A stretch of DNA of 64,000 nucleotides, from NCBI GenBank assembly GCA_027045875.1, contig JALUAG010000072.1, positions 1 to 64,000 of the forward strand. The letters run 5' to 3'. Each line of letters opens with the position of its first letter. Within the stretch, counting starts at the first letter, position 1. Position numbers and translations under genes: made by a program. This stretch comes from Alphaproteobacteria bacterium (GTDB lineage Bacteria > Pseudomonadota > Alphaproteobacteria > Geminicoccales > Geminicoccaceae). Below, in pieces: positions 9,516 through 27,887 of the stretch. The notes beneath the pieces were generated by a model that ran no database searches, was not told where the DNA came from, and worked only from the letters and a program-made list of their open reading frames with translations.

Positions 9516-10322
9516 TCATTTGCCCGTCCCGTGCATGCTCTCGGTGCCGCGGGTCAGGCGATAGGCCAGAAGGATGGGCAGGAAGGTGACGGCGATGACG
9601 AACACCGCCACCACGTTGGTCACCGGCCGCTGGCGCGGCCGCACGAGTTCGGACAGCATCCAGATGGGCAGCGTCGTCTGCTGGCCGGCGGTGAAGGTGG
9701 TGACGATGACCTCGTCGAAACTGAGAGCGAAGGCCAGCATGCCGCCGGCGAGCAGGGCGGTCGCGAGATTGGGCAGCAGCACCCAGCGGAAGGTCTGGAA
9801 GCCGTCGGCGCCGAGGTCCATCGCCGCCTCGAGGAGCGAAGGCGAGGTGCGGCGCAGCCGGGCGATGGCGTTGTTGTAGACGACGACGATGCAGAAGGTG
9901 GCGTGGCCGGTGACGATGGTCCAGAAGCTGAAGGGAATGTCGAGAAGGCCGAAGGTGGAGCGGAGCGCGATGCCGGTGATGATGCCCGGAAGGGCGATGG
10001 GCAGCACGATCAGCAGGGTGATGGCGTCGCGGCCGAAGAAGCGGGCCCGCCACAGCGCCGCCGCGGCCAGCGTGCCGAGGAGGATGGCGAGCGCGGTGGC
10101 CACGAGCGCCACCTCCACGCTGAGCCAGAGCGCGTCCCAGATGTCCTGCCGGTTCCAGGCGACGGCGAACCATTTGAGGGTCAGCCCGGGCGGCGGGAAC
10201 TGGTAGCTCTTGTCCTCGGTGGTGAAGGCGTAGAGCAGGATGAAGGCGATCGGCAGGTGGAGATAGAGGAGCCCGCCGGCGGCCGCGATACGGAGGCCGA
10301 GGCCCGCCCGCTCAGAGCGCAT
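9516..10322 (-). CDS. Polyamine-type ABC transporter permease (PotC/YdcV-like)
   Basis: A 268-aa inner-membrane permease with about six transmembrane helices. The EAA loop that docks with the ATPase is visible ([29 protein letters not shown]). The order ATPase, PotB-type permease, PotC-type permease, aldehyde dehydrogenase matches the ydcSTUV-patD operon. Its start overlaps the end of the previous permease gene by 11 bases. Confidence 0.9.
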
Positions 10323-11268
10323 CGAACGCCCCCAGCCGTCGGGCGACGGCGAGATAGACGGCCATGATGACGATCGGCACGACGGAGAAGGCGGCGGCCA
10401 GCGGCACGTTGCCGGCGGTGCCCTGGTGGATGTAGACGGCCTGGCCCAGGAACAGCTTCGAGGTGCCGATGATGTAGGGGATGATGTAGTCGCCGAGGGT
10501 CAGGGAGAAGGTGAAGATGGAGCCGGCGACGATCCCCGGAAAAGCGAGCGGCAGCACCACGTAGCGGAAAGTCTGGCGCGGCCGTGCCCCGCAGTCGGCG
10601 GCGGCCTCGAGGAGCGAGGGCGGCACCCGCTCCAGCGCCGCCTGGGTGGGCAGGATCATGTAGGGCAGCCAGATGTAGGTGAAGACCAGGAACATGCCGA
10701 TGTAGGAGATCGACAGGGACGGCCCGCCCACCACCGGCAGGGAGAGAAGGGCATCCAGCAGCCAGGAGGTGCCGGTACGCTCCGCCGCCCAGCTGATCAC
10801 CCCTTCCTTGGCGAGGATCAGCTTCCAAGCGTAGACCCGCACGAGATAGCTGGACCAGAGGGGCAGCATCACCCCGAGGTAGAAGAGCGCCTTGCCGCGG
10901 GGGGTGGAGAAGCGCGCCGCATAGTAGGCGATGGGAAAGCCGATCAGCCCGCAGGCCAGCGTGACGGCCGCCGCCATGCCGGCGGTGCGCCGGATGATGT
11001 CGAGGTTGGCCGGCTGGCTGAGCAGCTCGTACCAGGTGGCGAGGGTGAATTCGTAGACGATCTGGCCGGTGAAACTGTCGAGGCGGAAGAAGCTGTGGGC
11101 GAGGAGCGCCAGCAGCGATCCCAGATAGACGATCCCCAGCCACAGAAGGGGCGGCAGCAGCAGAAGCAGGGTAAAGAGGCGGGAATGGCGCCAGAGGAAG
11201 GTGGACAGGCGGCGCAGCCGGCCCGCCCCCGGAGTCGCCAGCGGGAAAGCGGATGTGGCCGTGCTCAC
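10312..11268 (-). CDS. Polyamine-type ABC transporter permease (PotB/YdcU-like)
   Basis: A 318-aa permease. A GTG start at 11268 overlaps the TGA of the ATPase gene (GTGA), and the protein then begins [13 protein letters not shown] before its first membrane helix. Six helices and the EAA motif ([29 protein letters not shown]) identify the binding-protein-dependent permease family. The longer open frame reaching 12150 is a shadow of the ATPase gene and is not used. It forms the membrane channel with the PotC-like subunit. Confidence 0.9.
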
Positions 11269-12353
11269 CGGCCGGTCTCCCGCAGCGGCCGCATGGCGTC
11301 GCGCCGCCAGCCGAGACGGATCTCCCGGCCCGGCGCGAGGGCACCGTCGGTGCCCTCGGTGTTGGGCCGCTCCACCACCAGCTCGAGACCGTCGGACAGG
11401 ACCAGGCGCAGCCGCGTGCTGGCGCCGTGGTACTGGATGTCGGTGATCCGTCCCCTGGTCTCGATATCGACGGCGCCGGCCGGCGGATCGAGCAGGATGC
11501 GTTCCGGGCGCAGCGAGAAGGGCCGGCGCTCGCCCGTGAATCGGACGGCGGCCTCGGCGTCGACGATGTTGGAGATGCCGACGAAACCCGCCACGAAGGC
11601 GGTGCGGGGGTGCTCGTAGATCTCGGGCGGGGTGCCGATCTGCTCGATGCGGCCGCGATTGAAGACCGCCACCCGATCGCTCATGCCGAGCGCTTCCTCC
11701 TGATCGTGGGTGACGTAGACGAAGGTGATGCCGAGCTCGCGCTGCAGGCCCTTGAGCTCGCTCTGCATCTCCTGGCGGAGCTTGAGGTCGAGGGCCCCCA
11801 GCGGTTCGTCGAGGAGCAGCACCTCGGGCTCGTTGACGAGTGCCCGGGCGAGCGCCACCCGCTGTCGCTGACCGCCCGAGAGCTGGGCCGGGCGGCGGTC
11901 CTCGAGGCCGGCGAGCTTGACGAGGGCGAGCGCCGCCTCCGCCTTGCGGATGCGTTCCGCGCGCGGCACCCTCTTCACCCGGAGACCGAAGCCGACATTG
12001 TCGAGCACGTTCATGTGGGGGAACAGGGCGTAGTCCTGGAACACCGTGTTCACCCGCCGCTCGTAGGGCGGCACCCCCCGCATCGGCCGGCCGAGGAGGT
12101 GGATCTCGCCGGCATCGGGCTCCTCGAAACCGGCGATCAGGCGCAGACATGTCGTCTTGCCGGAACCCGAAGGACCCAGCATCGAGAAGAACTCGCCCGG
12201 CGCGATCTCCAGATCGACCCCGTCGACCGCGCGCACCTCGCCGAAATGGCGATGCACGCCGAGAAAGCGGACCGCCGGCTCCGCCATCGCGGCCCTACGT
12301 CCCCGGATCGACGGGGACGGGGCCGCGACGCCGACGGTCACGGCCCCCTCCAT
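11265..12353 (-). CDS. Polyamine-type ABC transporter ATPase (PotA/YdcT-like)
   Basis: A 362-aa ATPase with Walker A GPSGSGKTT, signature LSGGQRQRVALARAL, Walker B LLLDEPLGALD and the switch histidine in VYVTHDQEEAL. A C-terminal TOBE-type domain follows (FSLRPERILLDPPAG). It powers import by the two permeases. An alternative start at 12287 (MAEPAVRF) would remove a low-complexity N-terminus of 22 residues; the upstream ATG has a GAGGG-type ribosome site. Confidence 0.92.
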   Translation of the reverse strand: MEGAVTVGVAAPSPSIRGRRAAMAEPAVRFLGVHRHFGEVRAVDGVDLEIAPGEFFSMLGPSGSGKTTCLRLIAGFEEPDAGEIHLLGRPMRGVPPYERRVNTVFQDYALFPHMNVLDNVGFGLRVKRVPRAERIRKAEAALALVKLAGLEDRRPAQLSGGQRQRVALARALVNEPEVLLLDEPLGALDLKLRQEMQSELKGLQRELGITFVYVTHDQEEALGMSDRVAVFNRGRIEQIGTPPEIYEHPRTAFVAGFVGISNIVDAEAAVRFTGERRPFSLRPERILLDPPAGAVDIETRGRITDIQYHGASTRLRLVLSDGLELVVERPNTEGTDGALAPGREIRLGWRRDAMRPLRETGR

Positions 12354-12362
12354 CGGCGGCCC

Positions 12363-13523
12363 TCACCGTCCGCCGAGGATGGCGATGTAATCGGTCACCC
12401 ATCGATAGTAGGGGACGCATGTGCCCTGGGTTTCGCACTGCGCGCGCGGCGTCTTCCAGAAATGGATGCGGTCGAAGTTGTCGATGCCGTTCTTCTTGCA
12501 GCCGTCCGGCCCCAGCAGCTCGTTGCCCTCGCAGGCCGCCGGCACCACCGGCACGGAACCGAACCAGGCCGCGAGGTCACCCTGCAGCTTCTTGTTGAGG
12601 GAATGCTCGAGCCACATGTAGGCGCAGTTCGGATGCGGCGCATCGACGTGCATCATGGTGGTGTCCGCCCAGCCGGTGGCACCCTCCTCGGGGATCGTGC
12701 TGCCGATGGGGAAGCCCTTGCTTTCGAGGAGGTTGACCTGGAACGGCCAGGAGCTCGAGGCGACCACGCCCTCGTTCACGAAATCGTCGATCTGGACGAA
12801 GGGGTCGTGCCAGTAGCGGTGGACGATCTTGCGCTGCTGGCGCAGGAGGTCGAGGGCCGCCTTGTACTGTTCCTCGTTGAGCTCGTAGGGGTCCTCGATC
12901 CCCAGCTCCGGCCGGTGGGCCATGAGATAGAGGGCCGCGTCGGCGATGTAGATGGGACCGTCGAAGGCCTGTACCCGGCCCTTGTTGGACTTGCCGTCGG
13001 GCAGGGTCTGCTCGACGAATACGACGCTCCAGCTCCGGGGCGGCTCCGGGAACACCTCCGAGTTGTACATCAGCACGTTGGATCCCCACTGATAGGGCAC
13101 GCCGTAATGCTTGCCCTCGACGGTGTGCCAGGGGGCGTTCTGGAGGCGCGGGTCGATGGTGTTCCAGCTCGGGATGAGGTCGATGTTGATCTCCTGGACC
13201 CGCTTTCCGTAGATGAGGCGCAGCGAGGCGTCGCCCGAGGCGGTCACCAGGTCGAAGCCGCCCTCGTTCATGAGCGCCACCATTTCGTCCGAGGTGCCGG
13301 CGGTCTTGACCCGCACCTTGCAGCCGGTCTCGGCCTCGAAATCGGTCACCCAGTCGTAGGCGGGATCGGTCTCGCCGCGCTCGATGTAGCCCGGCCAGGC
13401 GACGATATCGACGGCACCCTCGCCGGGACCGATCTCCTGGAGCGGGGCGGCGTTGGCCACATTGGCGAGGAGCAGGGCAACCCCGCTCAGACTCGCCGAC
13501 AGGCGCTTGGCGGTGTGGGCCAT
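12363..13523 (-). CDS. Polyamine-type periplasmic binding protein (PotD/YdcS-like)
   Basis: A 386-aa exported solute-binding protein. The ATG at 13523 follows a strong ribosome site (GGAGGGAGGAACC) and gives a signal peptide ending near ANA-APLQ. The mature part shows the PotD-family pattern (VDIVAWPGYIERG ... YGVPYQWGSNVLMYNSEVF ... PEEGATGWADTTMMH), consistent with binding putrescine or a related diamine. It is first in the five-gene operon. The operon order, identical to ydcSTUV-patD, is the main support for the substrate. Confidence 0.88.
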   Translation of the reverse strand: MAHTAKRLSASLSGVALLLANVANAAPLQEIGPGEGAVDIVAWPGYIERGETDPAYDWVTDFEAETGCKVRVKTAGTSDEMVALMNEGGFDLVTASGDASLRLIYGKRVQEINIDLIPSWNTIDPRLQNAPWHTVEGKHYGVPYQWGSNVLMYNSEVFPEPPRSWSVVFVEQTLPDGKSNKGRVQAFDGPIYIADAALYLMAHRPELGIEDPYELNEEQYKAALDLLRQQRKIVHRYWHDPFVQIDDFVNEGVVASSSWPFQVNLLESKGFPIGSTIPEEGATGWADTTMMHVDAPHPNCAYMWLEHSLNKKLQGDLAAWFGSVPVVPAACEGNELLGPDGCKKNGIDNFDRIHFWKTPRAQCETQGTCVPYYRWVTDYIAILGGR

Positions 13524-13599
13524 GATGGTTCCTCCCTCCTTTTCGGTGCGATGCGCGGCGCACGCATCCTCCCGCGTCATGCTGCGCCCCGGGGCCGTC

Positions 13600-13647
13600 T
13601 TTGTAAAATGCGAAGTTTCGAACCGAATTATCGGATTTTTCGATATC
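13600..13647 (-). promoter_or_regulatory. Operator/promoter region of the putrescine-type operon with a LysR box
   Basis: This short AT-rich patch between the LysR stop codon and the binding-protein start contains ATC-N9-GAT (13630-13644), the classical LysR-type half-site arrangement, and CGAA-GT-TTCG (13611-13620), a second inverted repeat. A weak sigma-70-like pair, TTCGGT and TACAAA with 16 bases between, reads toward the operon. The adjacent LysR protein is the natural candidate to bind here; that is inference. Confidence 0.5.
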
Positions 13648-14556
13648 TCAGCGTCCCCGCGCCGTCCGATGCCCCCGGCAGAGGGCCAGGAAGGCGTGCA
13701 CCCGCGGGCTCACCAGCGAGCCCTTGCGCCAGACGAGCCCGACATCGACGGTGGGCAGCGGATCGGCGAGCTGGCGCGCCTCGAGCCGGTCGCCCTCGAG
13801 CGACCAGCGGCGGAAGGCCATGAGCGGCAGCACCGCGAGCCCCGCTCCCGTGGCCACCAGCGAGCGCACCGCCTCGACCGACCCCGTACGCAATACGATG
13901 TTGGCGGTGAGCCCGGCCCGACGCCAGCAGTTCTCGATGGTGCGCGCGAGCTCGTCGGCGGTGAGCGCGATCAGCGGTTCGGCGGCGATGTCGGCGAGAC
14001 CGATGGCCTCGTGGCCCAGCAGGCGGTGGCTCGCCGGCAGCCAGAGGACGAGGGGCGAGCGTTCGAGGATCTCCCATTCCAGCGCCTGGCGGTTCTCGAG
14101 ATGGGAGACCAGCAGCAGCGCCGCGTCCAGCTCGCCGCCGATCAGCAGGTGTTCGATGTAGGCACGGCTGTCCTCGTGCACCCGCACCTGGACCTGCGGG
14201 AAGACGCGGCGGTGGCGGGCGAGCAGGTCGGCCAGGAAGTAGCCCGACACCATGCTGGAGACGCCGAGATCGAGGCTGCCCGCCTCGGCTTCCGGGGCCT
14301 CGCGCAGGGCCCGCCCGGCCTCGGAGACCGCGGCGAGAATCCGTTCGGCGTGGCGCAGGAAGGTCCAGCCCGCCTCGGTGGGGACCATGCCGCGGGCGTG
14401 GCGTTCGAAGAGGGCCGTGCCCGCCTCGGCCTCGAGCGCCTTGACGGCGCCGGTGACCGTCGACTGGGCGACGCCCAGCATCTGCGCCGCCGCCGAGACG
14501 GATTCGCTCTCGGCGACGGCGACGAAGTAGCGGAGGTTGCGCAGCGTGATCGGCAG
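13648..14556 (-). CDS. LysR-type transcriptional regulator with apparent CTG start
   Basis: About 302 aa. The winged helix-turn-helix reads LRYFVAVAESESVSAAAQML then GVAQSTVTGAVKALEAEAGT, and the co-inducer domain follows. The first ATG in frame (14481) would cut away the first half of the DNA-binding helix. Upstream of it, back to the in-frame TGA that ends the previous gene at 14575, there is no ATG, GTG or TTG. GGGGAG at 14563-14568 stands six bases before CTG at 14554-14556, making CTG the best start; ATC at 14548-14550 is another option. It precedes the putrescine-type operon on the same strand and likely controls it. Confidence 0.8.
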   Translation of the reverse strand: MPITLRNLRYFVAVAESESVSAAAQMLGVAQSTVTGAVKALEAEAGTALFERHARGMVPTEAGWTFLRHAERILAAVSEAGRALREAPEAEAGSLDLGVSSMVSGYFLADLLARHRRVFPQVQVRVHEDSRAYIEHLLIGGELDAALLLVSHLENRQALEWEILERSPLVLWLPASHRLLGHEAIGLADIAAEPLIALTADELARTIENCWRRAGLTANIVLRTGSVEAVRSLVATGAGLAVLPLMAFRRWSLEGDRLEARQLADPLPTVDVGLVWRKGSLVSPRVHAFLALCRGHRTARGR

Positions 14557-14574: not shown

Positions 14575-16008
14575 TCAGCCGCGACTCTTGCGGACGATGG
14601 TGGCGACGTCCACGCCCAGCACGGCTGCCGCCTTGCGCTTGCTGCCGTAGCGCCGGATCGCGTCGGCGATCAGGCTCCGTTCGAAGCGCCGCACCTGCTC
14701 GCGCAGGCCCGGAGAGCCCGCATCGCCGTCCGACGCCTGCCCGTCGGCCTCGGGAGGGGCGATCGGGGCGGTTTCCTCCTCGGCCACCCGGTCGCCCTCC
14801 GTGAGCATCTCGGGCAGGTGCCAGGGCTCCGCGACATCGTCGCACATCACCGCGAGATGCTCGACGATGTTCTGGAGCTCCCGGATGTTGCCCGGAAAAC
14901 GGTATTCCAGCAGGCGGCGGAGGCAGGCGTCGCTGAGACGGAACGGCTGGCCGCGGCGGATCCCGGCCTCGCGCACGAAGAGATCGACCAGTTCGGGGAT
15001 CATCTCCCGGCAGGCGCGCAACGGCGGGATGCGCAGCGAGATGGTGCTCAGGCGGTAGAACAGGTCCCGCCGGAACCGTCCGCGCTCGACCATCGCGCCG
15101 AGGTCGCGGTTGGTGGCCGCGACGAGCTGGACCCGTACCCGCCGCATGCCCGTGGCGCCGAGCCGGGTGACCGTCCGGTCCTCGAGGAAGCGCAGCAGCT
15201 TGGCCTGGCAGGCGAGCGGGATCTCGCCGACTTCGTCGAGGAAAAGCGTACCACCGTCGGCGGCTTCGATGAGGCCGCGCTTGCCGCGCTGCAGGGCGCC
15301 GGTGAACGCGCCCCGCTCGTAGCCGAACATCTCGGATTCGAACAGGCTCTCGGGGATGCTGGCGCAGTTGACGTGGACGAAGGGGGCGCGGCGTCCCGCC
15401 GACCGCTCGTGCAGACAGCGGGCGATCAGGGTCTTGCCCACGCCCGATTCGCCCGTCAGCAGCACGCGGCTGCCGAGGCGGAGCGCCCGCAGGCCCATCT
15501 CCAGGATCCGTCGATTGTGGCTGCCGGCCACCATCCGGTGGAGGCACTCGCCGTCGGTGCCCCGGGCTTCGTCGAGGGAGGAGGCGCCCGCCGCCGTTCG
15601 GCGGATGGCCTCGAGATCGCGCTGGACGACGACGAACAGCACGAGATCGCCGTCGGCGTCGCGCACCGGCCGCATGAGCGTGAGCACCTCGCGACCGTCC
15701 ACGGTGCGGTCGACGCGCTGCAACCGGCTGCCCCGGCGCAGGGCCTCCAGCGCCGCCTCGCCCAAGAGCGGGCTCTCCTCCACCAGCTCGCCGAACGGCC
15801 GCCCGAGATGTGCCCGCCTGTGCACCTCGTGCAGCGCTTCGGCGGCGCTGTTCATGAACCGCAGGATCCCCTGCCCGTCGACGACGAGCAGGGGATCGGG
15901 GAGGAGATCGGCGATCATCGCGAAGCGGCCGTCGGCGAGCCATGCCGCGAGTTCCCGGGGCGAGGTCAGGAGTGCGCCGATGCCGCCCGTGGGTGGTGCG
16001 AAACGCAT
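14575..16008 (-). CDS. Sigma-54-dependent activator with N-terminal PAS domain
   Basis: A 477-aa enhancer-binding protein. Residues 30-140 form a PAS domain (PDPLLVVDGQGILRFMNSAAEAL). The AAA+ domain carries Walker A GESGVGKT, the sigma-54 contact loop GAFTGA, Walker B LFLDEVGEI and the arginine-finger region. A Fis-type helix-turn-helix ends the protein (RYGSKRKAAAVLGVDVATIVRKS). It starts 5 bases after the PAS-sensor stop codon, so the two are cotranscribed. A strong -24/-12 promoter 1.6 kb away, in front of the divergent amine operon, is its probable target. Confidence 0.92.
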   Translation of the reverse strand: MRFAPPTGGIGALLTSPRELAAWLADGRFAMIADLLPDPLLVVDGQGILRFMNSAAEALHEVHRRAHLGRPFGELVEESPLLGEAALEALRRGSRLQRVDRTVDGREVLTLMRPVRDADGDLVLFVVVQRDLEAIRRTAAGASSLDEARGTDGECLHRMVAGSHNRRILEMGLRALRLGSRVLLTGESGVGKTLIARCLHERSAGRRAPFVHVNCASIPESLFESEMFGYERGAFTGALQRGKRGLIEAADGGTLFLDEVGEIPLACQAKLLRFLEDRTVTRLGATGMRRVRVQLVAATNRDLGAMVERGRFRRDLFYRLSTISLRIPPLRACREMIPELVDLFVREAGIRRGQPFRLSDACLRRLLEYRFPGNIRELQNIVEHLAVMCDDVAEPWHLPEMLTEGDRVAEEETAPIAPPEADGQASDGDAGSPGLREQVRRFERSLIADAIRRYGSKRKAAAVLGVDVATIVRKSRG

Positions 16009-16013
16009 CGCGT

Positions 16014-17243
16014 CTATCCTCCTCCGCCGTCCGCGGACGGAGCCTGCGGCAGCGCCGCCGGCCGGGCGCCCTCCTCCGCCGGCACGGGAGCGCTCGCCTC
16101 GAGGAGGCGCAGCACGGCGATGAAACTGTCGCCGTCGTCGACGTCGGTCGTCAGGGTGAGGGTGACCTGCACCCTCCGCTCGCTCCCGTCCGCGCGCATC
16201 ACGCGGCCGGTGAAGCTCGCGCGCGATCCCGGTTCCATCTCGCGACGCCGGGCGAGGAGCCGCTTGAGCTCGAGGATGCCCGAGACGTCCCGGCCGAGCC
16301 ATTCCCCGACCTTCCACCCGAGCAGCTGTTCGAAGGCCGGATTCGCCGCCTTCAGGAGGCCGTTGCGGTCGAAGACCAGGATCGGATCCGGGACCGCGGT
16401 CAGGATGTCCCGGTACTGGTGTTCCATCTGCACGAGCTTGTTCTGGGTCCGCTTGAACTGGGTGACGTCCCGCACCGTGCCCCACATGCGGTACAGTTTG
16501 CCGTCCCGGATGTCGCAGCGGACCGTGTTCTCCACGTACATCGCCCGTCCGTCGTGCCGCACGTCGAGGGACAGCACGTCGTCGATCGCGAAGCCGGCGT
16601 CGATCAGCTGCTGGACGAACGCCTCGTTCTCGGGGCTGCGGGGGAAGTAGAGGTTGACCGGCTGGCGGCGGATGTCGAGGTCGTCCGGCAGGTTGTAGAG
16701 ACGCGTGAACGCCCGGTTGCAGACCCCCCAGTAGCACTCGTTCTCGAACACCTGGCGGATGATCTCCCGATCGGTTCCGCCGAGATCCACCGGTTCCGCG
16801 TATTCGATGCACCACATGGGCTCGCAGGAAGTCTCCACGAGGCCGCGCAGCACGTCGTAGGAACGGGTCACCTCCCGCAGACGACGGGAGAGCGCGCCCG
16901 GTTCCAGCGCGGCGAGACACCAGGCCCGCCGTCCCCGCCAGGACACCGCCCGCGCCCGGGCCTCGACCGACACTTCCGTGCCGTCGCGATTCCGGAGCTC
17001 GAGCTCCACGGGCTCGTTCTCCTCCGCACGGCCGGAAAGGAGGGCACGGAGCCGCGCGCAGCTCGCCGGGCTCGCGAGCGCCCCGATCTCGAGGTCGAGG
17101 AGTTCGGCCGAGGTCCGTCCGAGGATCCGTTCCGCCTCCGCGTTGCAGGCGAGCACGCGGCCCTCCTCCGAGAGGAGCAGCATCAGGACGGGGGCCCGAT
17201 CCGCGAGGATCTCCAGCGCGTCTTCCCGTGCCGCAATCGGCAT
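16014..17243 (-). CDS. PAS-repeat sensor protein without kinase or output domain
   Basis: A 409-aa soluble protein with three PAS-like domains: residues 10-110 (VLMLLLSEEGRVLACNAEAERIL), 120-270 (EPMWCIEYAEPVDL ... MWGTVRDVTQFKR) and 280-390 (PDPILVFDRNGLLKAANPAFEQLL). No histidine kinase, GGDEF, EAL or DNA-binding domain follows; the C-terminus is low complexity. GGAAGGGA precedes the ATG at 17243. Being cotranscribed with a PAS-bearing sigma-54 activator, it may pass a ligand or redox signal to that protein by direct contact. This is inference. Confidence 0.8.
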   Translation of the reverse strand: MPIAAREDALEILADRAPVLMLLLSEEGRVLACNAEAERILGRTSAELLDLEIGALASPASCARLRALLSGRAEENEPVELELRNRDGTEVSVEARARAVSWRGRRAWCLAALEPGALSRRLREVTRSYDVLRGLVETSCEPMWCIEYAEPVDLGGTDREIIRQVFENECYWGVCNRAFTRLYNLPDDLDIRRQPVNLYFPRSPENEAFVQQLIDAGFAIDDVLSLDVRHDGRAMYVENTVRCDIRDGKLYRMWGTVRDVTQFKRTQNKLVQMEHQYRDILTAVPDPILVFDRNGLLKAANPAFEQLLGWKVGEWLGRDVSGILELKRLLARRREMEPGSRASFTGRVMRADGSERRVQVTLTLTTDVDDGDSFIAVLRLLEASAPVPAEEGARPAALPQAPSADGGGG

Positions 17244-17464
17244 CGCGGTTCCCTTCCATCGTTGCGCGGCGGGTCGCCGGGGCATCGGTTCCTCCGGTTT
17301 CCACCCCGCCGCGACGCGCCCGTCGGTACCGGGCCGCGCATGGTTGGCCCTGACTGCCTGCGCCGAGTCAACCAAGGACCGTGCCAGTTCGATGCAGCCA
17401 TGCGATTCAATCGCGTGCGGCCGTCGGGTTCAACTCCCCCGGAGGCGCGCACGGCCTCTCCCAG

Positions 17465-17648: not shown

Positions 17649-17663
17649 TGGCACGGGGCTTGC
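17649..17663 (+). promoter_or_regulatory. Sigma-54 (-24/-12) promoter of the amine operon
   Basis: TGGCACGGGGCTTGC matches the RpoN consensus TGGCAC-N5-TTGC exactly. The invariant GG (17650-17651) and GC (17662-17663) are separated by ten bases. It reads toward the operon that begins at 17753, and a sigma-54 activator is encoded just upstream in the opposite direction. Transcription should start near 17675. Confidence 0.85.
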
Positions 17664-17752: not shown

Positions 17753-17920
17753 ATGAAGCGTCATCTCACACCGGAAATGCAGCAAGAGCTCGAGAAGCGG
17801 ATCGACAGCATCGAAAAGGGCCATCTGCCCGATCCGATGCACGTCCGCGAATGGTGGCTGCCGCTGGCCATAACCGGCCTGATCGTCCTGTTCCTGTACC
17901 TCGTCGCGGCAGGCCAGTGA
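17753..17920 (+). CDS. 55-aa single-span membrane protein, partner of the NCS1 transporter
   Basis: A 55-aa protein: about 30 polar, charged residues (MKRHLTPEMQQELEKRIDSI) followed by one membrane helix (PLAITGLIVLFLYLVAAG, about residues 35-53). The ATG has a purine-rich ribosome site. It is the first gene after the -24/-12 promoter and 49 bases before a 465-aa transporter. Small membrane subunits of this size accompany several transporter families; here it may be an accessory subunit of the NCS1 carrier. I do not recognise a named family. Confidence 0.75.
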   Translation: MKRHLTPEMQQELEKRIDSIEKGHLPDPMHVREWWLPLAITGLIVLFLYLVAAGQ

Positions 17921-17969: not shown

Positions 17970-19367
17970 ATGAGCGGCGAACGGCATGTCGAGCGCGAGG
18001 TCTATTTCGGCATTCTGCCGGTGCTTCGCGGCGAACGGCAGTTCGGTCTGCTGGATTTCATTCTCATCCAGGTGGGGTTCGGGATCGCGGCCTGGAGTTT
18101 CCTGGTCGGCGGCTACACCGGGTTCGTGCTGCCGGCGCTGCCGGCCACGGCGGCCATTCTGTTCGGCAACGCGCTGCCGCTGCTGCTGCTCTGCCCGCTG
18201 GCGATCCTCTTCGTCCGCTACGGGGTGGAGACCTTCATCGGCGCCCGCTCGAGCCTCGGCCCGGTGGGCAGCAACATCTTCCTCGTGATCTTCGCCGTTC
18301 TCAATCTCGGCTGGATCACCATGGCCTGCTTCATGCTCGGCGAATCGGCGATCCGCGTCGTCGCCGCGTTCGGCGGTCCCGAAAGCCTCCAGTCGAGGGA
18401 GATCGGGGCGCCGATCTTCGCCATCGTCGCGTTCGCGGTCGCCTGGTGGATCGCCCACGGCGGACCGCTCGCCATCAAGTTCTTCATCCGCATCGGCGTG
18501 CCGGCGATGTTCCTCATCATCTGCGGCCTCATCCTCTACATCTTCGCCGCCCAGGGCATGGACAAGGTGCTCGCCGCCCAGCCCAGCGAGGCCTACGACA
18601 GCATGCGCCGCAGCCTCGCCTCGGCGATCGAGTGGAACGTCGGTCTGGGCTTCTCCTGGCTCCCCTATTTCGGCCAGTGGAACCGCCTCGCCCACAGCGA
18701 GAAGAGCGGCGTCTGGGGCACCTATCTCGGCTGGGGCGTGGTGCTCAACGTGGCCGCCATCCTGGGTGCCCTCACCGCGCTCCTCGTGGGCAGCTACGAG
18801 CCGACCGAGTGGATGGTGCAGGCGGGCGGACCCCTCTTCGGCCTGTTCGGCCTGGTGCTGCTGATCCTGGCCAACCTGACCTCGGCCTCGGTGCTGGTCT
18901 ATTCCCAGGGCATCAGCATCAAGACCGTCTTCCCCCGCTGGAACTGGACCCTGGCCTGCCTCACGGCGGTGCCGGCGGCGCTGCTGATGCTCACCCCGAC
19001 CGTCTACGACGGCTACGTCACCTTCCTCGGCTACGTGTCCTTCATCATGGCGTCGTTTGGCGGCGTCATGGTGGCCGACCTCATGTTCGTCAAGAAATGG
19101 CGGATCTCGATCCGCGATCTCTACGACAACGACGGCGGCATCTACCGTTACGTCAACGGGATCAACTGGGCTGCCTACGTTGCGGTGGTGATCGGCGGGA
19201 TCTTCTACTTCTGGACCTACGATCCGGTGGCCGACCGTGCCGGCCCGCTGTTCGAGTACATCACCGCCGGCATTCCCACCTTCTTCATCAGTGCCGTTCT
19301 CTACGTGCTGCTCGCCCGCGTGCCCGCCCTCACGGGAGAGAGCGGCTCCGCACGCGCCGTCGCCTGA
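17970..19367 (+). CDS. NCS1-family permease (nucleobase:cation symporter type)
   Basis: A 465-aa integral membrane protein with about twelve helices. The general NCS1/cytosine-permease pattern is present: GARSSLGPVGSN in the N-terminal half, WNVGLGFSWLPYFGQWNR in the middle, and a conserved YDGYVTFLGYVSFIMASFGGVMVADL region. NCS1 carriers take up purines, pyrimidines, hydantoins, thiamine or related N-compounds with a cation. Placement before an amine dehydrogenase suggests that it imports that enzyme's substrate or a precursor, so a nucleobase substrate should not be assumed. Confidence 0.8.
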   Translation: MSGERHVEREVYFGILPVLRGERQFGLLDFILIQVGFGIAAWSFLVGGYTGFVLPALPATAAILFGNALPLLLLCPLAILFVRYGVETFIGARSSLGPVGSNIFLVIFAVLNLGWITMACFMLGESAIRVVAAFGGPESLQSREIGAPIFAIVAFAVAWWIAHGGPLAIKFFIRIGVPAMFLIICGLILYIFAAQGMDKVLAAQPSEAYDSMRRSLASAIEWNVGLGFSWLPYFGQWNRLAHSEKSGVWGTYLGWGVVLNVAAILGALTALLVGSYEPTEWMVQAGGPLFGLFGLVLLILANLTSASVLVYSQGISIKTVFPRWNWTLACLTAVPAALLMLTPTVYDGYVTFLGYVSFIMASFGGVMVADLMFVKKWRISIRDLYDNDGGIYRYVNGINWAAYVAVVIGGIFYFWTYDPVADRAGPLFEYITAGIPTFFISAVLYVLLARVPALTGESGSARAVA

Positions 19368-19425: not shown

Positions 19426-21630
19426 ATGGCCCGCGATCCGAAATACGACATCCTGTTCGAGCCCATCCGCATCGGGCCGAAGACCATGTGGAACCGGTTC
19501 TGGCAGACCACCCACTGCGCCGGACCGGGATCCGAGCGGCCCGGAGCCCAGGCCTACTTCCGGGCCATGAAGGCGGAGGGCGGCTGGTCGGCGGTGTTCA
19601 CCGAGTTCTGCTCGGTCCATCCCGAATCCGACGAATACCCCTTCACCAGCGCCCGTCTCTGGGACGAGGGGGACGTCATCAACCTGCGCCTGATGTGCGA
19701 CATGCTGCACGAGCACAATGCGCTGGCCGGCGTCCAGCTCTGGTACGGGGGCATGCATTCCCTGTGCTTCGAATCCCGTGAAGTGCCGCGGAGCGCGAGC
19801 TGCCTGCCCTCCAATCTCTTCCCCTCGCGCTGCGCCTATTCGACGGAAATGGACGAGGACGACATCAAGGCCGCCATCAACATGTACGTCGAGGCGGCCA
19901 AACGGGCCGAGCAGGCCGGCTTCGACATCCTCGAGGTCTCGGGCGGCGACAGCACCCTGCCGGTGCAGTTCCTCGACCACCGCTACAATCACCGCACCGA
20001 CCGCTACGGCGGCTCGTTCGAGAACCGCGCCCGCTTCTACGTCGAGCTCATGACGGCGCTGATGAAGGAGTTCGGCGACCGCCTTGCCGTCACCACCCGC
20101 TTCGAGGTCGATACGCTGCTCGGTCCGGACGGCATCGAGGCGGAGGAGGAGGGCATCCGCTTCGTCGAGCTGCTCCATCGCGAGGGGGTCTGCCACGCCT
20201 GGTCGGTGAAGATCGGCGACTACGAGGAGTGGGGCGAGGACGCGGGGCCGTCCCGCTGGCGCAAGACCGGCTGGATGCTGCCCTTCGTGCGTCAGGTGAA
20301 GAGCGTCGTCGGTCCCGACATTCCGGTGGTCACCAACGGCCGCTACACCAGTCCCGACGACATGGTCGCCATCATCCAGAAGGGAATCGGCGACATCATC
20401 GGCGCCGCCCGGCCCTCGATCGCGGATCCGTTCCTCCCGCGCAAGATCATGGAAGGGCGGATCGAGGACATCCGCGAATGCATCGGCTGCAACATCTGCG
20501 TCTCCCGCTTCAATCACTTCGGACAGCTCAACTGCACCCAGAACGCCACCTCGATGGAGGAGTACCGGCGCGGCTGGCATCCGGAAAAGTTCGACAAGAC
20601 CGAGAACCCCTGTTCGGTGCTCGTGGTCGGCGGCGGCCCGGCCGGCATGGAATGCGCACGGGTGCTCGGGGAGCGCGGCTACGACGTCCATCTCCGTGAG
20701 GCCGAGGCCGAACTGGGCGGTCACTGGCGATGGGTCTGCAAGCTGCCGAGGCTCCAGGAATGGGCGCGGGTCATCACCTACCGCGAGATCCAGCTCGGCA
20801 AGCTCAAGAACGTGGAAGTCCATCTCGGGGTCGGGCCGATGTCGGCCGACGACGTGCTGTCCTACGGCGCCGACAAGGTGGTCATCGCCACCGGCTCGTT
20901 CTGGCGCACGGACGGGCTGGGCGCCGAAACCCATCACCCGGTGCCCGGTGCCGACGCCTCGCTGCCTCACTGCGTGACGCCCGAGCAGCTGATGGCCGGC
21001 AAGCCGGTGGGCGACCGCGTGGTGGTGCTCGACGGTGACGGCCATTTCATGGGCATCGCCGTCGCCGAGATGCTGGCCGATCAGGGCAAGAAGGTGACCC
21101 TCGTGACGAACATGTCGGAGATCGCCGAGTACGGCGTCTTCACGATGGACGTCATGAACAACAAGAGAATGATGTACAACAAGGGGATCGCCCACTACCG
21201 CAACCACTGGGCCGAGCGGATCGAACCGGGCCGCATCACTCTCTTCTACCTCTATCGTCACGGGCCCGATCTCGCCGGTCCGCGCACCGGCCATGTCCCG
21301 CGCTTGCCCGAGCGCGACGATACCTTCGACATCGAATGCGACACCGTGGTGCTGGTGACCGCCCGGCTGCCCAACGACCGGCTCTATCGCGAGCTGCGCG
21401 CGCGCAAGTCGGAATGGGCCGAGAACGAGCTCCTGGCGGTCTATCGCTGCGGCGACTGCCACGCCCCGAGGCAGCTCCACAACGCGATCTTCAGCGCCCA
21501 CCGGCTGGCCCGGGAGTTCGATTCGCCGCATCCCCAGTATCCGCTGCCCTGGATCCGCGAGCGGCAGATCTGGGGGCACGAGACCTTCCCCAGGCTGGGC
21601 GATGCCCGGCCCCGCGTCGAGGTCGACTGA
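19426..21630 (+). CDS. Trimethylamine/dimethylamine dehydrogenase-family iron-sulfur flavoprotein
   Basis: A 734-aa enzyme colinear with trimethylamine dehydrogenase. The N-terminal Old-Yellow-type barrel keeps Cys31, the residue that covalently binds FMN in TMADH (WQTTHCAGPG). The [4Fe-4S] cysteines are C352, C355, C358 and C370. The C-terminal part has nucleotide-binding folds (VLVVGGGPAGMECARVLG). Of the TMADH aromatic bowl, Tyr60 and Trp355 correspond to Phe61 and Phe362, while the Trp in EEWGEDAG is kept, so the substrate is probably a different amine. Electrons should pass to the ETF encoded next. Alternatives include dimethylglycine-, N-methylproline- or histamine-type substrates. Confidence 0.85.
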   Translation: MARDPKYDILFEPIRIGPKTMWNRFWQTTHCAGPGSERPGAQAYFRAMKAEGGWSAVFTEFCSVHPESDEYPFTSARLWDEGDVINLRLMCDMLHEHNALAGVQLWYGGMHSLCFESREVPRSASCLPSNLFPSRCAYSTEMDEDDIKAAINMYVEAAKRAEQAGFDILEVSGGDSTLPVQFLDHRYNHRTDRYGGSFENRARFYVELMTALMKEFGDRLAVTTRFEVDTLLGPDGIEAEEEGIRFVELLHREGVCHAWSVKIGDYEEWGEDAGPSRWRKTGWMLPFVRQVKSVVGPDIPVVTNGRYTSPDDMVAIIQKGIGDIIGAARPSIADPFLPRKIMEGRIEDIRECIGCNICVSRFNHFGQLNCTQNATSMEEYRRGWHPEKFDKTENPCSVLVVGGGPAGMECARVLGERGYDVHLREAEAELGGHWRWVCKLPRLQEWARVITYREIQLGKLKNVEVHLGVGPMSADDVLSYGADKVVIATGSFWRTDGLGAETHHPVPGADASLPHCVTPEQLMAGKPVGDRVVVLDGDGHFMGIAVAEMLADQGKKVTLVTNMSEIAEYGVFTMDVMNNKRMMYNKGIAHYRNHWAERIEPGRITLFYLYRHGPDLAGPRTGHVPRLPERDDTFDIECDTVVLVTARLPNDRLYRELRARKSEWAENELLAVYRCGDCHAPRQLHNAIFSAHRLAREFDSPHPQYPLPWIRERQIWGHETFPRLGDARPRVEVD

Positions 21631-21713: not shown

Positions 21714-24700
21714 GTGAACGAACCGACCCGTGAGCTGTTCTGGTCCCTGGACGGGACCCAGATCCTGCTCTTCTACCTCGGCGCTGCGCTGGCCGGGGGT
21801 GTCTTTCTGGCGGGTTGCTGGCGGCTCTTCGACCGCTACCGGCGTGCGCGACGCCTCCCGTCCCTCCCGGACCTCCGGGCCGGTCTCGGGCGGGCGCTGG
21901 TGGACGTGCTGAGCCAGCGCACCGTCCGGCGAAGGGACGCGCTGGCCGGCTGGGCCCATACGGCCGTCTTCGCGGGCTACCTGATCGGCGCGATCGGCAC
22001 CGCCGTCATCACCGTCGAATACGATTTCCTGGCGCCCCTTTTCGATATCCGCTTCTGGCGCGGCGACTTCTATCTCTGGTACAGCCTGATCCTGGACCTC
22101 GGCCATCTCGGCCTCACCGTCGGCCTCCTCGTTCTGATCGGCCGTCGGCTGCTGCTTCGTCCGGCGAAGCTCGACTATCGCCGCCGCTACCGGGGCGAGC
22201 GGGAACGCGGACCCACGGCCCGCCGCCGGTGGCTCGAGGACTGGGGCTTTCTCCTGTTCCTGCTCGCGGTGGAGATCACCGGCTTTCTGCTCGAAGGTGC
22301 GCGGCTCCTCATGGAGCAGCCGGCCTGGGCGGCCTGGTCGCCCGTCGGACGTGCCGTCGCCGCCCTGCTGGCCGCCGCCGGCATGGACGGACAGGCGGCG
22401 GCGTCGTTCCGTGTCTTTTTGTGGTGGCTGCACGGGGCGCTCGCGCTCGGTTTCACCGCTGCCATCCCCTGGTACAAGGCGCGCCACATGCTGCTCGCCG
22501 TCGGCTCCCTCGCGGTTCGGGACCGCAACGCCCTGCGCCGGCTGCCGCGCGAACCCGAGGAGGCGGGCGAGGCCGGCATCGGCGGGACCGGGGATCTGAC
22601 CTGGAAGGATCTTCTGGATCTCGATGCCTGCACCCGCTGCGGTCGCTGCCACGAGGCCTGCCCCGCGCGCACCGTGGGCGCGCCCCTGAGCCCGCGGGAT
22701 CTGGTGCTCGATCTCGGGGAGGCGGTCCGGCGGCAAGGTCCCATCGACCTCGCCGGCGGCACCATCGCGGCCGAGACGCTGTGGTCCTGCATATGTTGCG
22801 GGGCCTGCCAGGAGATCTGTCCGGTCGGCATCGAACATCCGCCGCTCATCGTGCGGATGCGGCGCCGGCTGGTCGAGCGCGACGAGCTCGACCCCCTGCT
22901 GCGCACCACCCTCGATCAGGTCGCGAACACCGGCAACAGTTTCGGCGAAAACCCGCGGAAGCGCGGCCACTGGACGCGCGAGCTCGAATTCCGGGTCAAG
23001 GATCTGCGCCGAGAACCGGCGGAATATCTGTGGTTCGTCGGCGACTACGCCTCCTTCGACCCGCGCAACCAGCAGGTCAGTCGCACGGTGGCCCGCCTGC
23101 TGCGGGCCGCGGGGGTGGACTTCGGGCTGCTCTTCGAGGAGGAGCGCACCGCCGGCAACGACGTGCGGCGGATCGGCGAGGAGGGGCTGTTCGAGGAGCT
23201 CGTCCGCACCAACCGCGATGCCATGGCGGCGGCGCGGCTTTTCCGCCGCATCCTGACCACCGACCCGCACAGCTACAACACCCTGCGCAACGAGTACCCC
23301 GACTGGGGTGCGATGCCGCCGGTGGTGCATTACAGCCGTCTGCTGCTGGAGCTCCTGGAGAGCGGCAGGCTGCGGGTGACGAAGCCGCTCGGATACCGGG
23401 TCACCTTCCACGATCCCTGCCATCTCGGGCGGCTGAACGGGGGCTACGAGGCGCCCCGCAAGGTGCTCGAGCGCATCGGATGCGAACTCGTCGAGATGCC
23501 CCGCAACCGGGACAATTCCTTCTGCTGCGGCGCAGGTGGCGGCCAGATCTGGATGACCCCGGACCCGAAGCGGGAGAAGCCGTCGGAGAACCGCCTGCGG
23601 GAGGCCGCGTCGCTGGGCGGGATCGACGTGTTCGTGACCTGCTGTCCCAAGGATCTCGCCATGTTCGAAGACGCCCGCAAGACGGGAGGCCACGAACGGG
23701 ATTTCGTCGTTCGCGACCTCGCGGAACTGGTGGCCGAGGCGGTGGAACTCGGCCTGCTCGAACCGAAGGATCTGCCCGACCTACTCGAACGCATCGTCGA
23801 CGCGGCGGCGCAGCGCTGGGTGGAGCGGGTCGAACGGAGGCTCGGGGACCGGCTGCCCGGGCTCGTCGAGGCCGCGCGGACCGAAGGGCGGGAGGCCCCG
23901 GGGACGGAGCCGGTTCCGGATGCCGGCGGCGAAGGCGGCGAGGCTCGCGACGGGGAGCCGGCGTCCCGGTGCGCGCCGGCCGAAACCGGTCCGGCGCCTG
24001 CACCCGAGCCGCCGTTCCTGCCGATGCGCTGGGAAGCGCCGAGGCCGCTCGCTCCGGCCCCTCTTCCCGACTACGAGGTTCCCGAGAAAACCGGGCCGCG
24101 CATCCTCGTCGCCGGAAAGCGGGTGGCGGTTCTGGGGGACGAATTCTCGCTCGCGCCCGATGGGCGGGACGTGTGTCCCGAGGCGCTCGACCATGCCCTC
24201 AACGAATGGGACGATGCGGCGCTGGAGGCGGCCCTCCAGTTCGTGGAACGGCAGGGGGCGGGTGAAGTCGTGGCCGTGTCGGTGGGTCCGGAGGATGCGG
24301 AGGCCGCGCTTCGAAGGATGCTCGCCAAGGGGGCCGCACGTGCGGTCCGGATATGGCACCCGACGCTGGAGCGGGCCGATCCGGCGCTGGTGGCCCGGGC
24401 CCTCGCCGGCGTCGCCGTCAAGGAGCGGCCGGACCTTCTCCTCACCGGCGTCCAGTCCGCCGATTTCGCCCATGCGGCGACGCCGGGCCTGGTCGCCGGC
24501 ATGCTGGACTGGCCGTTCGTCCAGACGGTCGTCTCCCTGGAACGCGAGGGAGATCTCCTCCTGGTCGAGCGGGAGCTCGAGGGGGGCCTCCGGGAACGGG
24601 TCGAGCTTCGTACGCCCGCCGTCCTGGCCGTCCAGACCGGTTCCTACGCGCCGCGCTACGCCACCATGCGGATGATCAAGCAGGCGCGCAGGAAGCCGCT

Positions 24701-24860
24701 CGTGGTCCTCGACGCCGAGGGAGTGGCGGATGGCAGCAGCGCCTATCGGCTGCGCGGGATGCGGGTCCCGGAACGGTCGAGAGCCGAGATGCTCGAAGGC
24801 AGCGTGGAGGAGATCGCCGCCCGCATCGCCGCCATCATACGCAGCAGGAGGGAGGGCTGA
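21714..24860 (+). CDS. Fusion: DgcB-like membrane Fe-S oxidoreductase with C-terminal EtfB
   Basis: A 1048-aa protein from a GTG start. Residues 1-260 hold about six membrane helices of the NarI-like type. Residues 300-375 carry two ferredoxin motifs (CTRCGRCHEACP from C306, CICCGACQEICP from C359). Residues 430-720 contain two CCG-type cysteine-rich domains (FHDPCHLGRLNGG, NSFCCGAGGG near C604, VTCCPKD). A Pro/Ala-rich linker leads to residues 793-1048, an electron-transfer flavoprotein beta subunit (RILVAGKRVAVLGD ... YAPRYATMRMIKQARRKPL). It should take electrons from the flavoprotein through ETF and deliver them to the quinone pool. In dimethylglycine-type operons these are normally separate genes. 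Confidence 0.85.
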   Translation: MNEPTRELFWSLDGTQILLFYLGAALAGGVFLAGCWRLFDRYRRARRLPSLPDLRAGLGRALVDVLSQRTVRRRDALAGWAHTAVFAGYLIGAIGTAVITVEYDFLAPLFDIRFWRGDFYLWYSLILDLGHLGLTVGLLVLIGRRLLLRPAKLDYRRRYRGERERGPTARRRWLEDWGFLLFLLAVEITGFLLEGARLLMEQPAWAAWSPVGRAVAALLAAAGMDGQAAASFRVFLWWLHGALALGFTAAIPWYKARHMLLAVGSLAVRDRNALRRLPREPEEAGEAGIGGTGDLTWKDLLDLDACTRCGRCHEACPARTVGAPLSPRDLVLDLGEAVRRQGPIDLAGGTIAAETLWSCICCGACQEICPVGIEHPPLIVRMRRRLVERDELDPLLRTTLDQVANTGNSFGENPRKRGHWTRELEFRVKDLRREPAEYLWFVGDYASFDPRNQQVSRTVARLLRAAGVDFGLLFEEERTAGNDVRRIGEEGLFEELVRTNRDAMAAARLFRRILTTDPHSYNTLRNEYPDWGAMPPVVHYSRLLLELLESGRLRVTKPLGYRVTFHDPCHLGRLNGGYEAPRKVLERIGCELVEMPRNRDNSFCCGAGGGQIWMTPDPKREKPSENRLREAASLGGIDVFVTCCPKDLAMFEDARKTGGHERDFVVRDLAELVAEAVELGLLEPKDLPDLLERIVDAAAQRWVERVERRLGDRLPGLVEAARTEGREAPGTEPVPDAGGEGGEARDGEPASRCAPAETGPAPAPEPPFLPMRWEAPRPLAPAPLPDYEVPEKTGPRILVAGKRVAVLGDEFSLAPDGRDVCPEALDHALNEWDDAALEAALQFVERQGAGEVVAVSVGPEDAEAALRRMLAKGAARAVRIWHPTLERADPALVARALAGVAVKERPDLLLTGVQSADFAHAATPGLVAGMLDWPFVQTVVSLEREGDLLLVERELEGGLRERVELRTPAVLAVQTGSYAPRYATMRMIKQARRKPLVVLDAEGVADGSSAYRLRGMRVPERSRAEMLEGSVEEIAARIAAIIRSRREG

Positions 24861-24863
24861 GGC

Positions 24864-25832
24864 GTGCCGGGGACACTGATCCTGGCCGACCATGTCGGCG
24901 GCCGCATGGCCGGTTCGACCGCCGAGCTGGTGGGAGCGGCGAAGGCGCTGGGGAGACCGTTCGGCGAGCCCTGCCGCTGCCTGCTGATCGGCGATCGGGA
25001 CCTGTGCGCGCGGGCGGCGGAGCTGTCCTTCGAAGGAGTGGACGAGATCCTCACCGTCGATGTCGGGAGTTCGGATTTCGACGCCACGCGGTGGGCCGCG
25101 GTGCTCTTCCGGGTAGCAGCCGCGGAACGGCCGCGCCTCGTGCTGGTCCCGCACAGCGCCAACGGCATGGCGGTGGCGCCCCTGCTCGCCGCCGAACTCG
25201 GGTCCGGCCTCGCCACCGACGTGTTCGGGATCCGCGTCGAGGGACAGGAACTCGTCGCGGTCCGCGGTGCCTACGGCAACAAGCTCGAGATGGAGGTGGA
25301 TTTCCCGGGTCGCGAGCTGGTCGTGCTGACCCTCCGCGGCGCGAGCTTTCCGCCGGCGGCAGCGGGCGGAGCGGCGACCGTCCGCGCCTGGCCTCTGCCG
25401 GCCGAGGAGCTTCCCCGGTCGGTGCGCCACGGGGGCTACGTCGAGGCTCCGGCATCCGACGTCGATATCGGCAAGGCCGAGTTCATTCTGGCGGTGGGAC
25501 GCGGCATCGGCGACCGGGAGAATCTGCCGCGCTTCGCCGCCCTCGCCGAGCGGATGGGCGCGACCCTCGGCTGCTCACGTCCGATCGTCGACGCCGGCTG
25601 GTTGCCGAAGGCCCATCAGGTGGGCCAGTCGGGCAAGGTGGCGGCGAGCTGCAAGCTCTACCTTGCGTTCGGGATCTCGGGGGCGGTACAGCATCTCTAC
25701 GGGATGAAGCACGTCGAGACGATCATCGCCGTGAACACGGATCCCGCGGCCCCCATCTTCAATGTCGCCACCTACGGCGCCACGGTCGATCTGTTCGAGC
25801 TCGCCGACGCCCTCGAGCGCGAGTTCGCGTGA
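24864..25832 (+). CDS. etfA: Electron transfer flavoprotein alpha subunit
   Basis: A 322-aa EtfA. The C-terminal FAD-binding domain is clear (GQSGKVAASCKLYLAFGISG, then a VNTDPAAPIFNVATYG block). The GTG start lies 4 bases after the fusion-gene stop codon with GGAGGG upstream. It must pair with the EtfB domain carried at the C-terminus of the previous protein, since no free etfB is present nearby. The heterodimer would accept electrons from the TMADH-type flavoprotein. It is the last gene of the sigma-54 operon and converges on the TRAP genes. Confidence 0.92.
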   Translation: MPGTLILADHVGGRMAGSTAELVGAAKALGRPFGEPCRCLLIGDRDLCARAAELSFEGVDEILTVDVGSSDFDATRWAAVLFRVAAAERPRLVLVPHSANGMAVAPLLAAELGSGLATDVFGIRVEGQELVAVRGAYGNKLEMEVDFPGRELVVLTLRGASFPPAAAGGAATVRAWPLPAEELPRSVRHGGYVEAPASDVDIGKAEFILAVGRGIGDRENLPRFAALAERMGATLGCSRPIVDAGWLPKAHQVGQSGKVAASCKLYLAFGISGAVQHLYGMKHVETIIAVNTDPAAPIFNVATYGATVDLFELADALEREFA

Positions 25833-25916
25833 CCTCGCGACCGGACGGTGCGAAGGCAAGGCGCCCGGCTCCCGCATGTCGGCGGCAGGAGGCCGGGCCC
25901 GGTGCCCCGGGTCGCC

Positions 25917-27248
25917 TCAGGGGCCGTAGAGCTGACGCGGCAGCCACATGGCGATGTCCGGGAACAGCATGATCAGGATGAGGGCGATCACCTGCAGGAA
26001 CATGAACTCGAACATGCCCCGGTAGATGCTGGTGAGCGACCACTGCGGCACCACCTGCTTGAGGTAGTACGCCGACATCGCCACCGGGGGCGAGAGGAAG
26101 GCCGTCTGCAGGTTGACCGCGATCAGGGCCGCGAACCAGACCATGTTGAGCCCCAACGCGTCCACCGTCTGCTTGGCCACCGGATAGAAGATGGGCAGGA
26201 AGACGAGGATCACCGCCGGCCATTCGAAGGGCCAGCCGAGAATGAACACGAGGAGCATGATGAGGGCCAGCATGGCCCACGGGGACATCTCGAGGCCGAG
26301 CAGCGTCTGGGTGATGAGATCCGCCGAACCCATGCGCGCGAACACCGCACCGAAGATGTTCGAGGCCACCGCGAGGAACAGCACCAGGCTCGAAGTCACG
26401 AGCGTGTTCTGGAGGGCGGCGACGAAATTGGTCCAGGTGAGCTTGCGATAGGCGGCGGCGAGGACGATCGCGCCGAGGGCGCCCATGCCGGCCGCTTCGG
26501 TGGGGGTGGCGAGACCGGCGAGGATGCTGCCGAGCGCGGCGGTGATGAGTGCCGCCAGCGGTACCATGCCGAGGACCACCTCGCGCAGGATCACCCAGCC
26601 CGAGCTCGCCCGTTCCTCCACGGGCATCGGGGGGCCGAGGCTCGGCCTGAAGAACGAGCGACCGAGGGCATAGAGGATGTAGAGCGCGGCCAGCAGAAAG
26701 CCCGGACCGAAGGAGGCGGCGTAGAGCTGCACCACCGAGATGCCCATCACGGGCCCCATCACGATGAGCATGACGCTCGGCGGGATGAGGATGCCCAGCG
26801 TACCGCCGGCGGTGATCACGCCCGCCGACAGCCGGGCGTCGTAGTTGGCCTTGATCATGATCGGCGCGGCCATGATGCCGAGCACCGTGACCGCCGCGCC
26901 GACGATGCCGGTGGCCATGGCGAACACGGTCGCCGTCGCCAGCACCACGAGATAGAGCGCGCCGCGCATCGGTGCCAGCAGCAGCCGGAAGGCCTGGAAC
27001 AGCCGTTCCATGAGCCCCGCCTGTTCGGTGATGAAGCCCATGAGGATGAAGAGCGGCACCGCCGCCAGCTCCTCCACCTTCATGAGACCGATGGTCTGGA
27101 AGTAGGCGAGGCTGAAGACCAGCTTGCCCAGCGCCAGATAGCCGAAGCCGAAGGCCAGGGCGAGCAGGGTGAAGGCGATCGGGAATCCGAGGAAGATGAT
27201 ACCGATCAGCAGGGCCAACATGATGAGCCCGATGATTTCCGTGCCCAT
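25917..27248 (-). CDS. TRAP transporter large permease (DctM family)
   Basis: A 443-aa membrane protein with about twelve helices, the ion-coupled permease of a tripartite ATP-independent periplasmic transporter. Family blocks include FLGFPIAFTLLALAFGFGYL, GGTLGILIPPSVMLIVMGPVMG and LATPTEAAGMGALGAIVLAA. The ATG at 27248 overlaps the TGA of the small-subunit gene by one base (TGATG). It belongs to the mannitol/chloroaromatic/keto-acid branch of DctM. The longer frame to 27644 is not used. Confidence 0.93.
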   Translation of the reverse strand: MGTEIIGLIMLALLIGIIFLGFPIAFTLLALAFGFGYLALGKLVFSLAYFQTIGLMKVEELAAVPLFILMGFITEQAGLMERLFQAFRLLLAPMRGALYLVVLATATVFAMATGIVGAAVTVLGIMAAPIMIKANYDARLSAGVITAGGTLGILIPPSVMLIVMGPVMGISVVQLYAASFGPGFLLAALYILYALGRSFFRPSLGPPMPVEERASSGWVILREVVLGMVPLAALITAALGSILAGLATPTEAAGMGALGAIVLAAAYRKLTWTNFVAALQNTLVTSSLVLFLAVASNIFGAVFARMGSADLITQTLLGLEMSPWAMLALIMLLVFILGWPFEWPAVILVFLPIFYPVAKQTVDALGLNMVWFAALIAVNLQTAFLSPPVAMSAYYLKQVVPQWSLTSIYRGMFEFMFLQVIALILIMLFPDIAMWLPRQLYGP

Positions 27249-27881: not shown

Positions 27882-27887
27882 CGCAGA

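Follow-up and report, generated by a model that had tools for sequence, protein, structure and literature searches.

A membrane Fe-S quinone reductase module fused to EtfB, and next to a TMADH-family dehydrogenase, suggests a tethered ETF in Alphaproteobacteria

ETF is usually cited as the model of a soluble carrier that moves between dehydrogenases and the membrane. In a contig of a Geminicoccaceae genome (GCA_027045875.1, JALUAG010000072.1), of which we analysed positions 1 to 64,000 (the window, 64,000 nucleotides), one gene joins a membrane iron-sulfur module to EtfB, and the question is raised whether ETF is here a fixed part of its own quinone reductase. No earlier description of such a fusion was found in the open-access literature searched.

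The fusion gene is a single open frame, from a GTG at 21714 to a TGA at 24860, that codes for 1048 residues and has no internal stop (Table 1). Pfam matched the protein to a Fer4 dicluster domain at residues 300-373 (E down to 7e-11), a CCG domain at 563-646 (1.5e-17) and an ETF domain at 825-1001 (7.6e-35). The N-terminal part matched mycobacterial EtfD (9ojn) at 2e-67 overall, most strongly over 337-790. Residues 796-1043 aligned to residues 2-259 of the 264-residue Methylophilus EtfB (1o94_C; 2e-55), so that the EtfB domain is complete. These matches bear out the initial annotation, which had read the gene as a DgcB/HdrD-like module followed by a complete-looking EtfB.

Table 1. Features of the fusion operon and its island in the window, and of the repeat protein in unfused operons.
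Feature	Position	Strand	Evidence
17.9-kb island, absent from the syntenic site in a same-genus genome	8062..25915	.	genome comparison
Aminobutyraldehyde dehydrogenase, above the curated cut-off of PRK13473	8066..9484	-	same island
Polyamine-type ABC importer (YdcS-like binding protein, ATPase, two permeases) and LysR regulator	9516..14481	-	same island
PAS/sigma-54 interaction-domain activator, divergent	14575..17304	-	profile matches
Exact sigma-54 promoter consensus TGGCAC-N5-TTGC	17649..17663	+	pattern search
55-aa small membrane protein, first gene past the promoter, before the NCS1 permease	17753..17920	+	without family match
NCS1-type permease	17970..19367	+	Pfam/NCBIfam
TMADH-family amine dehydrogenase, 734 aa, start ATG 19426 after GGAGGAGG	19426..21630	+	homology, alignment
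Fusion gene: DgcB/EtfD-type membrane Fe-S quinone reductase module, linker and EtfB, 1048 aa	21714..24860	+	frame, Pfam, homology; fusion conserved in other genomes
N-terminal membrane domain, residues 1-295	21714..22598	+	homology, alignment
Two [4Fe-4S] motifs, residues 302-373, CxxCxxCxxxCP twice	22617..22832	+	Pfam, alignment
First CCG-like domain, cluster D1 cysteines lost (GDYASF, ERTAGND, TTDPHS), His519 kept	23025..23294	+	alignment
Second CCG domain, residues 563-646: HDPC, FCCG, CCPKD; noncubane D2-type cluster site	23400..23651	+	Pfam, alignment
Linker, residues about 677-793: likely helix, Pro/Ala/Glu-rich stretch, conserved LPxYExPxK before EtfB	23742..24092	+	
EtfB domain, residues 794-1048, AMP-type, nearest Methylophilus TMADH ETF beta	24093..24860	+	Pfam, alignment
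etfA, 322 aa, intact FAD-binding domain	24864..25832	+	Pfam, alignment
LRV/HEAT-like repeat protein between DgcB and EtfB	L108 9926-11311; L109 7934-9379; L112 7984-9567; L113 7839-9473; L115 6970-8577		

The solved EtfD contains heme b (His78/His241), two [4Fe-4S] clusters, a noncubane cluster D2 and a linear [3Fe-4S] cluster D1 (PMC13083937). In the fusion, His82 aligns with the heme ligand His78, while the match of a second histidine, His258, to His241 is uncertain from sequence. Both residues are conserved across the DgcB set, as are the cysteines of the cubane [4Fe-4S] clusters, and His82 and, by inference, His258 are the likely ligands of heme b. The D2 site retains four of its five cysteines (C569, C604, C605 and C644) and the histidine (His519). 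The last D2 cysteine, Cys712 of EtfD, is replaced by Asp647 in the window and by Asp in most TMADH-linked DgcB proteins, and is a Cys in the unfused G274; because of this replacement, the D2 cluster may be different in the TMADH-linked DgcB proteins. The D1 cysteines are absent from the fusion. Their loss was reported for DgcB and FadF, and the authors proposed from it that ETF electrons enter these proteins directly at D2 (PMC13083937). An AlphaFold2 model of the fusion from a four-sequence alignment (mean pLDDT of 48) was uninformative on docking and was not used for fold searches.

The etfA gene, which the initial annotation had placed directly after the fusion, begins 3 nt past the stop codon. 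Its product exhibits the FAD domain PF00766 (1.2e-30) with FAD motifs as in 1o94_D, and both EtfA and the fused EtfB are nearest to the AMP-type ETF solved with Methylophilus TMADH (1o94). The EtfB segments NEWD and GVQSADFAHAAT align with NEWD and GVQSSDQAYAST of Methylophilus, at positions that we take to contact AMP by analogy with the human ETF record, and the PRYA segment is kept. The key AMP- and FAD-site residues are thus present in EtfB and EtfA. The window holds no other etfB, as had been noted, and elsewhere the genome encodes another etfBA (contig C36) and an ETF-QO (contig C32). Considering that these are present, the ETF of the island is a second, dedicated system.

The initial annotation had also counted on an amine dehydrogenase, a TMADH-like protein, and had compared the genes with dimethylglycine-type pathways. 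The enzyme is encoded directly before the fusion, and the TMADH family was preferred as its label to a dimethylglycine pathway, since the protein matches TMADH (1djn) over its whole length with an E value of 1.6e-232 and TMADH is its closest relative among solved proteins. Cys30, which forms the flavin link, and the [4Fe-4S] cysteines are kept. The substrate pocket is altered: relative to TMADH (with active-site numbering and roles that we assume from the TMADH literature), the replacements are Y60F, Y169S, H172D, Y174T and W355F, with Trp264 and Asp267 kept, so that the aromatic cage Tyr60/Trp264/Trp355 and the set Tyr169-His172-Asp267 are incomplete. L003, G116, G274 and the named unfused species described below have the full active-site set. 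The enzyme of Shinella sp. PSBB067 (L110 3591-5795) is 72% identical to that of the window and shares its pocket, with Phe60, Ser/Thr169, Asp172, Thr174 and Phe355. With these changes in the aromatic cage and at Tyr169/His172, the substrate of the window enzyme is probably not TMA either, and the common pocket suggests that the two enzymes form a TMADH paralogue group with another amine specificity. Together with the aminobutyraldehyde dehydrogenase and the polyamine-type importer of the island (Table 1), it suggests that the amine would be a diamine- or polyamine-like compound. The TMADH homologue of G225 presents another pocket again (Ala60, Ala174).

The fusion operon lies on an accessory island, since the segment 8062-25915 is absent between collinear flanks in a same-genus genome: window positions 25916-30975 and 3042-8061 align in order with a single contig of that genome, on which 21 bp separate the two flanks. 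The argB gene lies 4 kb downstream of etfA and shares 94% identity with the copy in the same genome. In Shinella, a sigma-54 activator likewise adjoins the operon, an exact TGGCAC-N5-TTGC occurs at L110 3522-3536, about 55 nt before the TMADH gene, and an aminobutyraldehyde dehydrogenase, 65% identical to the window copy, is encoded nearby. Allowing for one mismatch at most, the sigma-54 pattern occurred twice in the whole window against 2.9 expected, which is no enrichment. The exact site of the window counts because of its position and of the Shinella copy. A one-mismatch site at 17372-17386 on the reverse strand lies upstream of the divergent activator gene, and is possibly autoregulatory.

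A scan of species genomes returned two full-length relatives, one fused (L003, a Proteobacteria MAG, in the order TMADH / fusion / EtfA) and one unfused (L004, an Actinomycetota MAG, in the order TMADH / EtfB / EtfA / DgcB); the survey outside Pseudomonadota was small. Within the class, the fusion is present in 6 of 385 genomes including that of the window (G000, G046, which is the same genome as L003, G111, G116, G225 and G317), and a seventh candidate, G394, breaks off at the end of its contig ahead of the linker. In another family of the class, that of G317, the fusion is seen directly in 11 of 21 genomes (G317, G225, G111, G774, G777, G778, G779, G781, G783, G786 and G787), and in two more it is interrupted at contig ends. 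None was found among 30 genomes of the window's own family. The complete record of Shinella sp. PSBB067 (NZ_CP069303.1) contains the fusion with TMADH before and EtfA after, and the same order is seen in G116 and in G225, in which EtfA is interrupted by a contig end. In G317, where the fusion and EtfA are present, the 6 kb upstream of the fusion yielded no TMADH gene.

Trees built separately for the two halves placed all fused forms in one clade, with supports of 100/99 for DgcB and 99/99 for EtfB. Because the fused forms group together in both trees, they are most simply explained by one fusion event. The sister lineage of this clade has the same genes unfused. In G274 the order is TMADH / DgcB / EtfB / EtfA, with about 20 bp from the DgcB stop to the EtfB start, and in Paracoccus aminovorans and the betaproteobacteria Azoarcus sp. 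KH32C, Cupriavidus and Paraburkholderia it is TMADH / DgcB / repeat protein / EtfB / EtfA. In these operons, as in L004, the same four proteins are clustered while DgcB and EtfB are separate. The repeat protein, leucine-rich-variant/HEAT-like and matching Pfam LRV, stands exactly between DgcB and EtfB, in the place of the linker of the fused clade; it may be a scaffold with the role of the linker.

The linker of the window fusion counts about 115 residues (about 677-793) and is rich in Pro, Ala, Glu and Arg; its length varies from 80 to 173 residues across the fused forms. Between close relatives, the differences in the linker amount to 0.35-0.51 at third codon positions versus 0.09-0.21 at first and second positions, and the linker is therefore translated. 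A helix-like stretch after the CCG domain is conserved in the fused linkers, as is the segment LPxYExPxK just before EtfB, which is absent from the free EtfB proteins examined. Across the fused linkers compared, no common start codon preceded by a Shine-Dalgarno-like sequence was found. Several fused forms do present start-like codons where the linker meets EtfB, preceded by a weak purine-rich stretch, on account of which some free EtfB could conceivably arise from internal starts.

We consider it quite probable that the operon encodes a private tethered wire, leading from the amine dehydrogenase to ETF, to the [4Fe-4S] clusters, to heme b and to quinone. We infer the tethering itself, the pairing with EtfA, the motion of the tether, the direction of electron flow, the insulation and the amine substrate, and the scheme would operate as follows. 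The fusion would act as an ETF:quinone oxidoreductase like EtfD, DgcB and FadF, anchored in the membrane and bearing its own EtfB on a flexible arm, and the EtfA from the next gene would combine with this EtfB into a tethered AMP-type ETF. The TMADH-family dehydrogenase would oxidise the amine and pass the electrons, via its 6-S-cysteinyl FMN and [4Fe-4S] cluster, to the FAD of the tethered ETF. The arm would then swing ETF to the D2-type CCG cluster of the same polypeptide, from which the electrons would reach the two [4Fe-4S] clusters, heme b and quinone. Such a tether would raise the local concentration and isolate the amine electrons from the general pool of ETF, run separately by the cell. 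The path from amine dehydrogenase through ETF to the membrane, as first proposed for this locus, is supported with a TMADH-family enzyme at its head, its direction being the presumed one. The single fixed assembly proposed along with it would also require that the dehydrogenase be bound and that EtfA stay with the tethered EtfB.

Known systems share parts of this plan. Mycobacterial EtfD (9ojn) has a membrane heme b domain, which the fusion probably shares, together with two [4Fe-4S] clusters and CCG domains as in the fusion, and delivers ETF electrons to quinone (PMC13083937), the job proposed here for the fusion module. Its long disordered C-terminal tail, placed against ETF by the AlphaFold3 model of that paper (PMC13083937), resembles the arm of the fusion; unlike the fusion, it bears no EtfB on this tail, it has the linear [3Fe-4S] cluster D1, and it serves fatty-acid oxidation through a free ETF. 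Pseudomonas DgcB and Bacillus FadF have the domain plan of the fusion and have likewise lost the D1 cysteines, whereas their EtfB is separate and their C-terminal tail is short or absent (PMC13083937). The ETF-QO of the mitochondrial type performs the same task from ETF to quinone, but is a protein unrelated to the fusion and is encoded separately in the genome. Among solved proteins, the dehydrogenase, EtfB and EtfA are closest to those of Methylophilus methylotrophus W3A1 (1o94), whose ETF is also AMP-type but a free heterodimer, whereas in the window EtfB is the C-terminal domain of a membrane protein and the dehydrogenase has an altered substrate cage.

Other readings of the same data were weighed. 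The fusion could serve mainly stoichiometry or folding, with the linker cleaved or EtfB started internally and the working ETF free and mobile. A long, disordered-looking linker of varying length and the start-like codons near the EtfB border in some genomes would fit this, but the failure to find an internal start common to the genomes, the two conserved linker segments and the maintenance of the fusion across a clade make it improbable. A reverse flow, in which quinol would feed the membrane module and ETF so that the flavoenzyme reduces an unsaturated substrate, is very unlikely. The TMADH family falls within the OYE/2,4-dienoyl-CoA reductase superfamily, and OYE-type reductases are among the NCBIfam matches of the window flavoenzyme, all of them below cut-offs; the whole-length TMADH match with Cys30 and the [4Fe-4S] cysteines nevertheless speaks against it, as does the aminoaldehyde dehydrogenase alongside in two genomes, which amine oxidation would predict.

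Less likely still is that EtfB has degenerated into a docking domain with no working ETF. Some of its positions do differ from human EtfB (NPFC to NEWD, LVAVK to LVAGK), but the working Methylophilus ETF itself has NEWD and GVQSxD, and an EtfA with FAD motifs still adjoins the fusion; we rejected this reading on the match of the AMP-loop residues. As to an assembly or annotation artefact, the window genome is a draft of 110 contigs with 2.3% estimated contamination, and the gene is missing from same-genus relatives. There is nevertheless hardly any chance of it, and it was rejected: the same fusion occurs in many independent genomes, including the complete Shinella record, and together with the codon-position pattern of the linker this excludes an artificial join, in agreement with the initial view of a frame open through 1048 codons. 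A contaminant contig was rejected by the argB identity and the collinear flanks.

Returning to the tethered wire, a broader reading can be put forward tentatively, as somewhat less likely than not. The fused clade would have made ETF a permanently tethered domain of a quinone reductase, a private amine-to-quinone wire beside the general pool; the window and Shinella would have combined it with a TMADH paralogue for a new amine substrate, and sister lineages would use a repeat-protein scaffold instead of a covalent linker. The 2026 EtfD structure paper states that the docking site of ETF on EtfD-type reductases is unknown, perhaps on account of weak binding (PMC13083937). As the natural fusion would hold donor and acceptor together, it offers a ready-made sample for solving the ETF-reductase complex, and a means to test whether the mobility of ETF matters. 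The fusion operon of the window also points to a route for an amine that is probably not TMA.
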